A stretch of DNA of 40,142 nt, from the IMG/VR virus record IMGVR_UViG_3300042880_000416, positions 1-40,142 of that record; one strand, 5' to 3'. The translations under genes were made by a program, and so were the position numbers. Source of the DNA: a virus. This document shows positions 339-6,093 of the stretch, in pieces (positions within the stretch are counted from its first letter, which is position 1; every line of letters starts with the position of its first letter). The notes beneath the pieces were generated by a model. The model was given only the letters and a program-made list of their open reading frames with translations, searched no databases and was not told the origin of the DNA.

Positions 339-554
339 ATGGAAGAAATCACTGAAGTACAAAGACAATACACTTTAAAAAAATCGTCAGACAGTTATGT
401 AATTGAAGATGGCGTGTTCTTTTTCAATCCACAGATGTACTCAGGAAATATGTCCGAGTATGATCTAAGAATCATTGCTGACGAGCTAAAAAGAATAAAC
501 GATGTGTTTGCTGATACTGACTCGTATTATAAACAACGGTCTGGAAGTCGGTAG
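339..554 (+). CDS. Hypothetical 71-aa protein
   Basis: A 71-residue, charged, soluble protein of unknown family. It sits just behind the promoter at 301-328 with almost no leader and no clear Shine-Dalgarno, so it would be read leaderless or nearly so. Its 3' end overlaps the 5' acceptor strand of the tRNA-like element at 538-607, which is unusual packing. A start at an internal Met cannot be excluded. Confidence 0.5.
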   Translation: MEEITEVQRQYTLKKSSDSYVIEDGVFFFNPQMYSGNMSEYDLRIIADELKRINDVFADTDSYYKQRSGSR

Positions 555-607
555 TTTTAGACAGATGGACAACACTAGATTCGCGGGTTCGAATCCCGCC
601 CAGATCA
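538..607 (+). tRNA. Degenerate tRNA-like element
   Basis: The acceptor strands GGTCTGG (538-544) and CCAGATC (600-606) pair over 7 bp with one G-U. The T arm is perfect (GCGGG, TTCGAAT, CCCGC at 583-599). A weak 3-bp D stem GTC/GAC is present. Only 20 nt separate the D and T arms and no 5-bp anticodon stem with a 7-nt loop can be drawn, so no anticodon is assigned. It may be a decayed tRNA or a tRNA mimic. Confidence 0.5.
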
Positions 608-1723: not shown

Positions 1724-1846
1724 GCCGGGATAGTTTAATTGGCTAGAACACGTAAAAGTCTTGAATAAGTTTTGACAATCGTGTACGATCATTCAAGGTT
1801 ATCCAATTGTAATGGCGATGTATAGGTTCGAATCCTATTCCCGGCG
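1724..1846 (+). ncRNA. tRNA-like RNA with expanded anticodon domain
   Basis: The acceptor GCCGGGA/TCCCGGC is perfect. The D arm (GTTT/GAAC with AATTGGCTA) and the T arm (ATAGG-TTCGAAT-CCTAT) are intact. The element is 123 nt, about 48 nt too long. In place of an anticodon arm lies a region with a 7-bp stem CTTGAAT/ATTCAAG (1760-1766 with 1791-1797), a nested ATCG-TGTA-CGAT hairpin, and then GGTTATCC. No anticodon can be assigned. It is far too short for a group I intron. It may be a tRNA mimic related to Y RNA biology, a spliced tRNA, or a pseudo-tRNA kept as a processing signal. Confidence 0.65.
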
Positions 1847-1943: not shown

Positions 1944-3521
1944 ATGACTTTCAAGTATAGTTTGAAAAATGGGTCTGTTAAACAAAAAATCGTTGGCAGA
2001 TCTTCTGAAATGGTTGCAAACGCTGGTGGCGGATACGCATTTAAGCTAGATGATTTTAAATTTCTAGAAAGATTTTTAATCATGGGCGCCACATCTGGAA
2101 CCTACCATATTTCTAAAAATGATCACCAATACAATAACTTTGAAAACATTATTAGTTGCATCAAGCAAGATGGAGTTAAGGTTGTTTCAGAAATTGTTAG
2201 AGTTTCTACAAACAATCTTGCTCACAAAAACGATCATGCTATTTTTGCATTAGCATTGGTGTTTGCTCATGGATCAAATGACGCCAAACAAAGCGCTGTA
2301 AAAGCCTTCAATAGCGTTGTTAGAACCGGCACTCATTTGTTTATGTTCGCTAGCTTTATCAAGTCTATGAGAGGGTTTGGTATTTCTGTAAGAACAGCGA
2401 TTAACAAGTGGTACACCGAAAAAAGCGATATCGGTTTTGCTAATCAAGTAACAAAATATCAAAGCCGAGAAGGCTGGTCGCACCTAGATGTGTTTAGACT
2501 TGCTCACCCAAGCTTTGCTAGTAGCGAATCAAAAAATAGGATTTCTAATTGGGTCGCCGGAAAAGATGTAGAATTCAATACATCCAACAATGGAGAAGCC
2601 CTGGTTGATGCTTTTGTTAGAGTTCATAAAACAGAATCTCTAAAACAAGTGTTAGAAATGGTTTCTACTTATGGGCTTCAAAGAGAGCATTTGCCAACCA
2701 AATTTTTGAACACAAAAGAAGTTCAAGAAGTTATGTTGCCAAAACTTGGAGGAACCGCCCTTTTAAGAAACCTTGGTAACATGTCCAAGAGTGGGCTATT
2801 GAGCGTTTTTAGTGATGCTTCTAAGTTTGTAGTTGAAAAACTGACAAACAAAGAGTTCCTAAAAGAAAATATGCTTCACCCACTAACAATTCTAGTAGCT
2901 AAAAAGACATACGAAAGTGGTCGAAGCAAGCTAGGGTCTGGAGTTTGGGACGTAAATAGTTCGATAGTAGACGCTCTTGAAACAGCATTCTATTTATCGT
3001 TTGACGCTATCGAGCCAACTGGTAAAAACTACTTTTATGGTATCGACGTGTCTGGTTCTATGGGCGCAGAGGATTCAACCGGACTGAAATACTGCGAGAT
3101 TGCCGCTGTGTTAGCAATGGCACACCTAAGATCAGAAGCGAATACTTTTGTTGGAGGGTTTTCTAGTGACTTTATTGATCTAAAAATCAGTAAATCAGAT
3201 ACACTAAATTCAGCTTCTGCTAAATGTATAATGCGTAACTTTGGGTCTACCAACGCTTCTGCGGCTATCAATTACGCCGCAAGGAAGAAGATTCCAGCAG
3301 ATTGTTTTGTAATGATAACAGACTGTGAAGTTAATAGAGGTTCGCACCCAACGATTGCTTTAAATGACTTTAGGCAAAAAATGGGAAGACAAAGTTCGCT
3401 GATCGTTTGCGGCCTACAAGCTGTTCCATACTCTGTAGCAGATCCAAAAGATCCATTACAGCTAGACATTTCTGGATTTTCTCCAGATATTACTTCGGTT
3501 ATCTCTGGATTTACTAGATAA
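1944..3521 (+). CDS. rsr: Ro60/TROVE-domain RNA-binding protein
   Basis: A full-length 525-residue Ro60 ortholog, close to the usual 530. Residues about 20-345 form the HEAT-like TROVE ring, with the GGTALLRNLGNM segment (269-280) and the HPLTILVAKKTYESG segment (312-326) characteristic of Ro. Residues about 360-525 form a von Willebrand A domain with an intact metal site: D368, S370 and S372 in DVSGSMG, T436 and D460. Ro60 proteins bind Y RNAs on the outer ring and ends of misfolded or damaged RNAs in the cavity. In bacteria they work with exoribonucleases and sit beside RNA-repair genes. GAGGAG precedes the ATG. Two Y-RNA-like RNAs lie directly upstream in the same unit. rsr is the symbol used for bacterial Ro genes. 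Confidence 0.93.
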   Translation: MTFKYSLKNGSVKQKIVGRSSEMVANAGGGYAFKLDDFKFLERFLIMGATSGTYHISKNDHQYNNFENIISCIKQDGVKVVSEIVRVSTNNLAHKNDHAIFALALVFAHGSNDAKQSAVKAFNSVVRTGTHLFMFASFIKSMRGFGISVRTAINKWYTEKSDIGFANQVTKYQSREGWSHLDVFRLAHPSFASSESKNRISNWVAGKDVEFNTSNNGEALVDAFVRVHKTESLKQVLEMVSTYGLQREHLPTKFLNTKEVQEVMLPKLGGTALLRNLGNMSKSGLLSVFSDASKFVVEKLTNKEFLKENMLHPLTILVAKKTYESGRSKLGSGVWDVNSSIVDALETAFYLSFDAIEPTGKNYFYGIDVSGSMGAEDSTGLKYCEIAAVLAMAHLRSEANTFVGGFSSDFIDLKISKSDTLNSASAKCIMRNFGSTNASAAINYAARKKIPADCFVMITDCEVNRGSHPTIALNDFRQKMGRQSSLIVCGLQAVPYSVADPKDPLQLDISGFSPDITSVISGFTR

Positions 3522-3575: not shown

Positions 3576-3956
3576 ATGAATATATTATTTTTAGATGACT
3601 GCCCACAAAGAACTAAAAAGTTTAAAAGACTGCTTCCAATGGCGGTTACATGCGAAACGGCGCAGGAGTGTATAGACCTGCTTCACACAGAGGATTGGGA
3701 CTATGTATTTCTAGATCACGATCTTGGCGGTGAGACATACCAAAGTTCAGATGAATTTAACACTGGTATGCAAGTGGTTCGCAGCGTAATGGAAAATCCC
3801 CCAAACGTTCAGCACTTTGTTGTACACTCTTTAAACTACGGTGCGGCCCTCAATATGGTGAGTTTATTGCGAGAGCGCGAATACATTACAACAAAATGTA
3901 GTTTTTTAGAAATTGAAAATTTCATTAGAACAAAAATTTACGGGTATCTAGATTAA
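3576..3956 (+). CDS. Cyclic-phosphate-processing receiver-like protein (cREC)
   Basis: A 126-residue receiver-fold protein. The acidic pair LDD (residues 6-8) and R12 are followed by FLDHDLGG (46-52), then FVVHSLNYGAALNM (81-94). The DHDLG and HS-N-G-M motifs mark the cREC family, which Burroughs and Aravind predicted to process cyclic phosphates at RNA ends in RNA-repair systems. Ordinary response regulators lack these histidines. It follows the Ro60 gene after a terminator and is nearly joined to the ATP-grasp gene 2 nt downstream. The enzymatic role in this phage is inferred. A strong GAGGAAAT leader precedes the ATG. Confidence 0.7.
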   Translation: MNILFLDDCPQRTKKFKRLLPMAVTCETAQECIDLLHTEDWDYVFLDHDLGGETYQSSDEFNTGMQVVRSVMENPPNVQHFVVHSLNYGAALNMVSLLREREYITTKCSFLEIENFIRTKIYGYLD

Positions 3957-3958
3957 TC

Positions 3959-4768
3959 ATGGAATTTATAATTCAAAAAGATTGTCAATTTTCGGGCGGT
4001 GAAACAGATAGATTGGTTCAGGCTTTAGAGAATAATAAAGTCAAGTATACTCTAGCCGACAGCGCTTATATCCAAGATGGCGTTACAGCCAATGCAGACA
4101 TATTTGTTCGCGGCTCTATCGAGTTTGTCAATGAATTTAATTTAATGTATGGAGAGTACACCAATCTTTATACTACTACACTAAGTAATTATACTTATAG
4201 CGAGTATACTAAAAATATTGACAATGAAATACTTAATAGTGATTATCTCATTCTACCGTGGCATAAATTATACAATGATTCATTGCATCTAATTATGCTT
4301 GCTACTGGGTCTGATAGATTTTTTATAAGGCCGAACAGCGGAAAAAAGATATTCACAGGCATAACACTAGGACGCAAGCATTTCTATAAAGAGCTTGATA
4401 TAATTAAAGGTCTGCCAAATTCAAATATTAATGATAATGATTTAGTTGTGATCGCTTCTGCAAAAAAAATAGACGCAGAGTATAGGCTACTGATGCATGG
4501 AAACAGTATAATTGACTATACTTGCTATAACGACCCAGGATATGGCTATATAAGAACAAGCTGTATTGATATTGATAAAGATTTTTATTGGCTAGCGTCA
4601 AAAATAAAAGATTTTCCTGATTGCTTTTATACACTTGATATTTGTTATGTAAAAGGAGTGCCATTTATTCTAGAATTGAACGGGGCATCTACCGCAGGTT
4701 GGTACGATATGGATTACGATAAGATTGTAAAGTACATAAAAAATCAGAAAGAAGAAGATGATTCGTAG
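3959..4768 (+). CDS. R2K-type ATP-grasp protein
   Basis: A 269-residue protein with a divergent ATP-grasp core. IRPNSGKKIFTG (123-134) supplies nucleotide-binding residues, AEYRLLMHGNSIIDY (173-187) the strand with E174 and R176, and LDICYVKGVPFILELNG (226-242) the metal-binding D227, E239 and N241. This matches the R2K clade described with CDC123, whose members are predicted to ligate amino acids or peptides to proteins or other targets. The N-terminal third is an unassigned domain. It follows cREC by 2 nt, so the two probably act together. The substrate is unknown. Confidence 0.65.
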   Translation: MEFIIQKDCQFSGGETDRLVQALENNKVKYTLADSAYIQDGVTANADIFVRGSIEFVNEFNLMYGEYTNLYTTTLSNYTYSEYTKNIDNEILNSDYLILPWHKLYNDSLHLIMLATGSDRFFIRPNSGKKIFTGITLGRKHFYKELDIIKGLPNSNINDNDLVVIASAKKIDAEYRLLMHGNSIIDYTCYNDPGYGYIRTSCIDIDKDFYWLASKIKDFPDCFYTLDICYVKGVPFILELNGASTAGWYDMDYDKIVKYIKNQKEEDDS

Positions 4769-4970
4769 CTTTTTAAAGCTTATTGTTTCTAGAATTTGCT
4801 TTAACGCTTCTTTAGTGTGCTTTTCTTATGGGTTTTTCTATTTCCTAAAAAATAGAGTTGACACAGCCATTATAAATGGTAGAATAAGTTTTGAAGAATC
4901 GTTTTGTATGCAGTTAATTATTTTTAGTATTTTTTTATTCATGTTTTCATCGGAGTTAAGTGATGTATAA
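4758..4970 (+). CDS. Small two-helix membrane protein
   Basis: A 70-residue protein with hydrophobic segments at about residues 10-30 and 47-64. Its start overlaps the ATP-grasp gene by 11 nt and its stop overlaps the UvsE start by 8 nt, so it is translated within that run. No family is recognised. Confidence 0.6.
   Translation: MIRSFLKLIVSRICFNASLVCFSYGFFYFLKNRVDTAIINGRISFEESFCMQLIIFSIFLFMFSSELSDV
4858..4885 (+). promoter_or_regulatory. Possible internal promoter before uvsE
   Basis: TTGACA (4858-4863), a 16-bp spacer and TAGAAT (4880-4885) lie inside the small membrane gene about 75 nt upstream of the UvsE start. The spacing matches the stronger promoters in the window. Confidence 0.4.
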
Positions 4971-6093
4971 TTTGTGTTGTATCAGTGAAGAATTAAAAAA
5001 AGAAAACATTTGTTTCAAGACCATGACATGGGCTAGGTTTTGCGAACTCCGTGACGCTAATGGACTAAACTCTGCCCTACAAGAACTTGGCGAACGATGG
5101 CTAAATAACATCAAAGTCACCGGCAGAGTTGTAGAGCATTGCGTAAACAACAACTGGGGCTATAGGGTGTCATCATCTTTGATGCCGCTTCTGACCCATC
5201 CAGATTTTCCTGGTGACTCTAGACTAGTGCCACAGTATCAGCAAATACTAGAAGAGTTCAACAAAATCAAAAACTATCTTGCTGACAAAGCAATTAGGAT
5301 TTCTTGCCATCCAGACCAGTTCAATGTTTTGGCTAGCAAAAACCAAGACGCAGTAAACAAAACCATCAAAGAGCTTAACTTTCATGGGGCTGTTCTAGAC
5401 CTTCTTGGTTGCAAGCAGGACTATTCTTGTCCAATCAATATCCATGTTAATTGTTCTGACGGAACGCCCGAAGAAATCGCCCAAAGATTTGTTGCCAATA
5501 TGAACAAGTGCAATAAATCTGTTCGTTCTCGCCTTGTAGTAGAAAACGAAGACAGGGGCATGTGGAATGTAGCTATGCTACTAGAACACTTTTGGAACAG
5601 CCACAAAATACCAATTACTTTTGACAATCTGCATGACAAGTGCAATCCATCAACTGACAGTGTAGATGCGTTTTCTTTGTGTGCCGACACCTGGAAAACT
5701 CTTGGATATGTACCACTGTTTCACTACAGCGAATCCAGTGCAAATGATCGCAAGCACGCATATATGCCAACATCAACCCCCTATTTAGAATTTGGAGAAG
5801 ATGCAAATAAGGTTGACTTTGATATCGAGCTAAAAGCAAAAGATGCCGCTATAAGATTCATGTCAGCAATACTTCGCGGCAAAGCCGAGCTATATAAACA
5901 TACAGGGGTTGCGTCTAGTGACTGTTGTGTGGCTGGAAGCACTCAAGATTGCTGTGTTCCTAGTAATGCGGCAGTATATAATGAAAATGTCAATGTAGCA
6001 ACGTCTGATGCGAGGGATGAATATAGTATGCCGCTTCCAACAGGAATCCTTGAGGGGAAGCTAAAGCCCAAAGTCCCAAAGCGTCCATGGTAG
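4963..6093 (+). CDS. uvsE: UV damage endonuclease UvsE/UvdE
   Basis: A 376-residue TIM-barrel endonuclease. Diagnostic segments are RISCHPDQFNVLAS (112-125), the VENEDR metal-binding Glu, FDNLHDKCNP, FHYSES and the late DIELKAKDAA. These provide the His, Glu and Asp ligands of the metal cluster. The enzyme nicks DNA 5' to UV photoproducts and other lesions and starts an alternative excision repair. ATG 4963 is chosen because CGGAG lies 7 nt upstream; a GTG at 4960 is in frame. After the barrel there is a tail of about 70 residues with two Cys pairs (DCC), absent from typical members, whose role is unknown. Confidence 0.93.
   Translation: MYNLCCISEELKKENICFKTMTWARFCELRDANGLNSALQELGERWLNNIKVTGRVVEHCVNNNWGYRVSSSLMPLLTHPDFPGDSRLVPQYQQILEEFNKIKNYLADKAIRISCHPDQFNVLASKNQDAVNKTIKELNFHGAVLDLLGCKQDYSCPINIHVNCSDGTPEEIAQRFVANMNKCNKSVRSRLVVENEDRGMWNVAMLLEHFWNSHKIPITFDNLHDKCNPSTDSVDAFSLCADTWKTLGYVPLFHYSESSANDRKHAYMPTSTPYLEFGEDANKVDFDIELKAKDAAIRFMSAILRGKAELYKHTGVASSDCCVAGSTQDCCVPSNAAVYNENVNVATSDARDEYSMPLPTGILEGKLKPKVPKRPW

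Follow-up and report, generated by a model that had tools for sequence, protein, structure and literature searches.

A candidate Ro60 Y RNA laid out in tRNA order, with a Ro60-type hairpin inside its anticodon stem, in a phage gene cluster

YrlA is a Y RNA that mimics tRNA and acts unspliced; to our knowledge, no explanation has been given for the tRNA mimicry of bacterial Y RNAs. In the known YrlA RNAs both ends of the molecule pair with each other in the Ro60 helix and the tRNA-like domain then follows, and in the characterised RYPER system YrlA tethers PNPase (PMC8394870). When the YrlA structure 6CU1 is superposed on tRNA, the two are related by a circular permutation (PMC11472068). Y RNAs are not named in a list of natural RNAs that exist in more than one circular order (PMC10085705), and in the open literature, a scope outside which the primary YrlA papers fall, no mention of a Y RNA with a tRNA-ordered layout was found.

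The stretch of DNA analysed here (the window) comprises 40,142 nt, positions 1 to 40,142 of the IMG/VR virus record IMGVR_UViG_3300042880_000416. On its plus strand, a promoter-like site of the sigma-70 type (TTGACA-17-TATAAT, 1542-1570) agreeing with the consensus at 12/12 positions points into a cluster of RNA elements, which are, in this order, a Y-RNA-like hairpin 1 (1579-1644), an ordinary tRNA-Val (UAC) (1649-1721), the tRNA-ordered Y RNA (tRL, 1724-1846), which starts 2 nt after the tRNA-Val, and a Y-RNA-like hairpin 2 (1850-1907), followed by a T run (1909-1916). The hairpins read AGGGG-A-C-GA..GAAAAGG-GUUAUC..AAAAGU-CCUUUUC..UUU-A-CCCCU and GAGUA-C-GA..GAAAAGG-GUUAUC..AACGU-CCUUUUC..UU-UACUC, respectively, and were recognised from sequence, a shared 19-nt pattern and their retention in a sister phage contig. 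The next gene after tRL, starting 98 nt downstream on the same strand (1944-3521), encodes a 525 aa Ro60 ortholog with TROVE (Pfam, 2e-30) and Ro60 vWA (vWA_Ro60, 5.7e-36) domains, which aligns over its full length with the Ro60 structure 1yvp (E 2.5e-86) and with Rsr (2nvo, E 1.3e-74). Directly 3' of Ro60 lie genes for a cyclic-phosphate-processing receiver (cREC) and an R2K-type ATP-grasp protein (3576-4768, +), plausibly RNA-repair neighbours of Ro60, and the phage also carries a gene for a UvdE-type UV-damage endonuclease (4960-6093, +). A weak tRNA match at the cut-off (29.2 bits) was seen at 538-607 (+), overlapping an ORF at 339-554; it has good acceptor and T arms and no recognisable anticodon arm, and is possibly a decayed tRNA or another tRNA-like RNA.

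The sister contig (L314/L138) encodes a Ro60 88% identical to that of the window and retains the promoter, both hairpins, the tRNA-Val and tRL (L314). In its tRL the D stem reads GCUC/GAGC where the window has GUUU/GAAC, so that pairing is preserved, and CGC replaces CGA. A permuted tmRNA (RF04321, 66.6 bits) was observed on the same contig (L138:1803-2092, -), approximately 1.2 kb from its tRL.

The original prediction, made for this RNA from the window alone, described a tRNA-like molecule with intact acceptor, D and T arms, and proposed Infernal tRNA and intron models as a check. The RF00005 tRNA model indeed matched exactly 1724-1846 with all three arms, at 44.1 bits (gathering 29; E 2.6e-6), while ARAGORN reported no tRNA at these positions. 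The acceptor stem is formed by GCCGGGA (1724-1730) and UCCCGGC (1839-1845), followed by G73 at 1846 with no encoded CCA; the D arm spans 1733-1749, and the T arm, AUAGG-UUCGAAU-CCUAU, 1822-1838. The description of the anticodon region had to be revised. It was thought to be replaced by a domain larger by 48 nt in which no anticodon was visible, and this absence of the arm was dropped after the split-stem test described below: a 5-bp anticodon stem is present, split between nt 28 and 29 by an insert of 50 nt (1753-1802). C27G28 (1751-1752) pair with C42G43 (1816-1817), i.e. C27-G43 and G28-C42. The remainder of the arm (1803-1817, CCA-AUUGUAA-UGGCG, helix 6) continues with C29C30A31 (1803-1805) pairing with U39G40G41 (1813-1815) around a 7-nt loop, AUUGUAA (1806-1812), which displays a UGU triplet. 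When the insert was deleted in silico, ARAGORN read the molecule as tRNA-Thr(UGU).

The insert runs from UAAAAGU through Y' (1760-1766), UU.., X' (1775-1777) and an AUCG loop to X (1782-1784), A-CGA (CGA at 1786-1788), Y (1791-1797) and GUUAU, forming helices 4 and 5. Y' and Y make up the predicted 7-bp stem (CUUGAAU/AUUCAAG, 1760-1766/1791-1797) with its nested hairpin, of which the X stem measures only 3 bp in the window. The GGTTATC core had been noted as common to both Y-RNA-like hairpins; the shared pattern is in fact longer, since ACGA-N8-GGTTATC is found in the window only at 1584, 1785 and 1854 (expected by shuffling: 0.02), twice in hairpins 1 and 2 and a third time, in register, inside tRL. 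Judged by this motif, the insert is a putative Ro60-binding Y-RNA helix. None of the group I or II intron models of Rfam matched the 50-nt insert. The thermodynamic optimum of the window tRL alone is another fold (-32.4 versus -21.3 kcal/mol for the proposed one, or -25.6 kcal/mol with the proposed pairs as a constraint); this optimum, one of several pairings considered for the anticodon region (there ACACG/CGUGU), is incompatible with the comparative pairs and was not adopted.

Relatives were collected with scans for GGTTATC preceded by a D arm and followed by a T arm, the order of a tRNA, which returned 59 and 45 viral stretches, and with a genome scan in the same order, which returned at least 116. 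About half of the genome-scan matches listed were something else (archaeal or Chitinophagaceae tRNAs, permuted YrlA types or chance matches). Structural checks retained 42 viral cases, including the window, and at least 58 genomic ones, leaving at least 96 distinct RNAs after removal of duplicates; because the scans rely on fixed sequence words, these counts are lower bounds and biased towards canonical D and T arms. They come from phages, cyanobacteria, myxobacteria, Chloroflexota and others, with hosts such as Nostoc, Pseudanabaena, Leptolyngbya, Polyangium, Sorangium, Desulfonema, Anaerolineae, Armatimonadota and Gemmatimonadota, and several genomes hold 2-5 copies close together. A search of viral_contigs with the single Ro60 protein of the window yielded no Ro60 relatives, whereas DNA patterns succeeded, and BLASTN for annotated tRL copies in phage and plasmid collections returned nothing useful. 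In Nostoc spongiaeforme a third arrangement within tRNA ends was observed beside three normal copies (L227:6735-6865, +), in which an X'-X hairpin is followed by CGA-Y-GGTTATC and then by AAAACAT-Y' before the T arm, so that Y' stands after Y.

Selection of candidates relied on the acceptor, both the D and the T arm and GGTTATC, with the Y stem as a further requirement in the viral set; the split anticodon stem was a selection criterion for neither viral nor genomic candidates. The full 5-bp split stem was nevertheless detected in 72/96 relatives among the matches listed, compared with 28.7 ± 3.3 (maximum 40 in 1000 shuffles) when the 5' pieces were exchanged among the 96 relatives. The split anticodon stem is thus not due to chance. 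The Ro60 site UU-X'-loop-X-CGA was present in 44/96 relatives among the matches listed, with 2.2 expected. RNAalifold, run unguided on an alignment of 38 sequences (A3), recovered the acceptor, D, Y, X and T helices, with double changes in 21 of 27 pairs. With the full named structure, 94.7% of the cells of A3 are paired, as against 68.5% after shuffling and at most 49.0% when slid; sequence relatedness inflates such pairing counts, so the slid control outweighs the shuffles. In total, 28 of the 35 pairs are doubly changed. Helix 3, whose outer anticodon pairs span the insert, is 97.3% paired, with compensatory changes, and the X helix including its UU/GA pairs is 94.7% paired. Compensatory changes were found in all seven helices, the split anticodon stem included, and a motif in the alignment is invariant across phyla.

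The occurrence of tRL is tightly linked to Ro60. TROVE is encoded by 29 of 39 viral contigs with tRL, against a background of 348/50,697 phage records; the other 10 show no TROVE and may be fragments. Among the matches listed, a Ro60 gene was found in the retrieved locus for 46 of 58 genomic cases, invariably on the strand of tRL and mostly less than 1 kb away. In 116 cyanobacterial genomes, model R1 detected tRL in 17 and TROVE was found in 19, including all 17, while only 2 of the 99 tRL-negative genomes encode TROVE (Fisher p 1.7e-18; TROVE cut-off E 0.01, as E 1e-8 proved too strict). In 78 genomes of the myxobacterial (Polyangium) class, 9 have tRL and 12 TROVE, with an overlap of 8 (p 1.8e-7). 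Since R1 also scores ordinary tRNAs up to about 48 bits, both surveys counted only matches of E 1e-14 or better.

Ro60 loci of actinophages carry the YrlA form instead, which reads CGA - Y - GGTTATC - T arm - capped acceptor - D arm - NNNAAAAC - Y'. The window tRL has these parts in rotated order: from acceptor - D arm - NNUAAAAGU - Y' - X' - loop it continues with X - CGA - Y - GGTTATC - T arm - acceptor. Scripted parsing of the fetched loci yielded 96 permuted YrlA-type RNAs, of which 67 contain the split anticodon stem (33.2 ± 2.9 after shuffling, maximum 43). The YrlA model RF02553 scored below gathering on tRL (best partial overlap 16.5 bits versus 69). Actinophage YrlA-type RNAs also fall below the cut-off, as does one beside Ro60 in Microbacterium phage Cece (L007:4450-4830, +), so RF02553 misses phage YrlA. 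In Rhodococcus phage Trina a permuted YrlA-type RNA by Ro60 is annotated as a 209-nt pseudo tRNA (L008:4598-4806, +). On a tree of 102 Ro60 sequences, RNA order changes 11 times as opposed to 33.9 after shuffling, with at least five changes forced by well-supported branches; order therefore travels with Ro60, yet has switched several times.

The anatomy, the covariation in all helices, the recurrence of the layout in at least 96 distinct RNAs and the tight Ro60 linkage were established by computation. The reading that we consider likely is that tRL serves the phage-encoded Ro60 as a Y RNA, and that the tRNA-like module of tRL comprises an entire tRNA body with its parts in the usual order. The Ro60-type helix would project from the anticodon stem between nt 28 and 29, with the lower stem capped by a short loop. 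Hairpin 1, tRNA-Val, tRL and hairpin 2 would be made as one transcript, from which RNase P (at the 5' end), the 3' tRNase and CCA addition would free tRL; once tRNA-Val and tRL are excised, the plain Y hairpins on either side would be released as leader and trailer. The RNA is thus probably matured by tRNA-processing enzymes, and would remain unspliced with tRNA-type ends. Ro60 would bind the inserted helix on its ring, and the tRNA body, by analogy with YrlA, may tether an RNA-handling partner (compare PNPase) or gate entry to the ring, without being used for decoding. The conserved anticodon-loop features U33 and A37 are not obviously needed by a pure tether. The guess that this is a tRNA mimic linked to Y RNAs has gained support from the adjoining Ro60, the in-register Y motif and the recurrence beside Ro60.

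The original prediction had also left room for a spliced tRNA or a degenerate gene. A decaying tRNA gene with a chance insertion would agree with the failure of ARAGORN to annotate tRL, but is refuted by the compensatory changes in every one of its seven helices, the motif invariant across phyla and the Ro60 linkage, and we give it practically no weight. Another alternative is a short intron, not self-splicing, that interrupts a tRNA gene at 28/29; the joined halves would give a working tRNA-Thr(UGU), and the excised piece could be the Y RNA. Once the insert is removed, ARAGORN calls a tRNA in 42/42 viral cases; among the matches listed, the 72 relatives with the full split stem have U33 in 69 and A or G at position 37 in 68, and nt 73 fits the anticodon in 29 of the 72 (23.6 after shuffling, p 0.047), a weak association; moreover, a cREC and an ATP-grasp ligase gene follow Ro60. 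On the other hand, nt 73 disagrees with the anticodon in about 60% of cases, often as C73, and the window's own G73 and the C73 of its sister are both unusual for Thr. The triplet drifts as well, with UCC, GUU, CAU, UGG and UAA anticodons among near-identical cyanobacterial acceptor stems (the TGGCAGG/TGGCGGG group). In 8/96 cases among the matches listed, furthermore, an intact 5-bp stem carries the Ro60 helix inside and no separate anticodon loop, and the permuted form, YrlA, is known to act unspliced. Drift, misfit and loop-less cases favour a mimic over decoding or a spliced tRNA, which makes the intron unlikely; since anticodons drift and mostly disagree with nt 73, tRL probably does not decode.

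A dual-purpose 123-nt tRNA, charged and bringing Ro60 to ribosomes or synthetases, would account for the full tRNA core and anticodon loop, and the window tRL has G1-C72, C2-G71 and G35 U36, which we take to be Thr identity elements of E. coli. These elements drift, however, and a bulky helix on the anticodon stem should clash in the ribosome, so that we regard such a function as very unlikely. Alternatively, tRL could act against anticodon nucleases or other defences that target tRNA, as a decoy or inhibitor held by Ro60; this reading shares the anatomy of the Ro60 Y RNA in part and differs in purpose. It would suit a phage with tRNA genes and predicted RNA-repair genes as well as the retained form of the anticodon loop, and for Salmonella it has been proposed that YrlA inhibits the nuclease competitively (PMC7790460). 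The anticodon shown is not consistent, however, and tRL is also common in chromosomes of free-living bacteria; we consider a decoy conceivable, though improbable.

For the Ro60 Y RNA that we prefer, the tRNA-type ends and the nearly intact tRNA suggest a simple origin, in which a tRNA gained a Ro60 helix in its anticodon stem; YrlA would then be a rearranged descendant or sibling. Tandem tRNA-order copies, read from mid-copy to mid-copy, would give the YrlA order. A more far-reaching version, in which tRNA order is the older state, YrlA arose from such tandem copies and some phages additionally excise the insert, so that a single gene gives a functional tRNA as well as a Y RNA with the participation of Ro60 and the adjacent RNA-repair enzymes, is a speculation to which we assign little probability. 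The model makes clear predictions for processing (RNase P, CCA), charging and Ro60 binding. Because Rfam labels RNAs of this type as tRNAs or misses them, the RNA partner of Ro60 may be mislabelled, which may concern cyanobacteria, myxobacteria and many phages.

Compared with described RNAs, tRL differs from tRNA (RF00005) in that its anticodon stem is not contiguous and is split by 50 nt between 28 and 29. Intron-bearing tRNAs are likewise interrupted in the anticodon arm, but what interrupts tRL at 28/29 is a conserved helix of the Ro60 type, and an anticodon loop is missing from some members. tmRNA (RF00023; permuted two-piece form RF04321) resembles tRL in that the anticodon side of a tRNA body leads into another domain and in that the family has permuted and unpermuted gene orders; the added domain of tmRNA is mRNA-like and serves ribosome rescue, whereas in tRL a Ro60 helix takes this place, and we identified no reading frame for a tag in it. 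Plain Y RNAs (of vertebrates, and simple bacterial hairpins) share the C-GA/UU helix, the upper stem and GUUAUC, but have no tRNA body and end in the helix. YrlA (RF02553, 6CU1) is alike in its Ro60 helix with GGUUAUC, its module of D arm, T arm and acceptor and its position adjoining Ro60, and the split anticodon stem recurs in the phage YrlA-type RNAs. The termini of YrlA are located in the Ro60 helix and its acceptor is capped, whereas those of tRL are at the acceptor, with the 5' strand 73 nt before the GGTTATC core and base-paired to the 3' end, and the cap is on the Ro60 helix. By its predicted layout, tRL is thus a circular permutation of YrlA, the un-rearranged counterpart and not YrlA proper, and with it Y RNAs may join the short list of natural RNAs that occur in more than one circular order.
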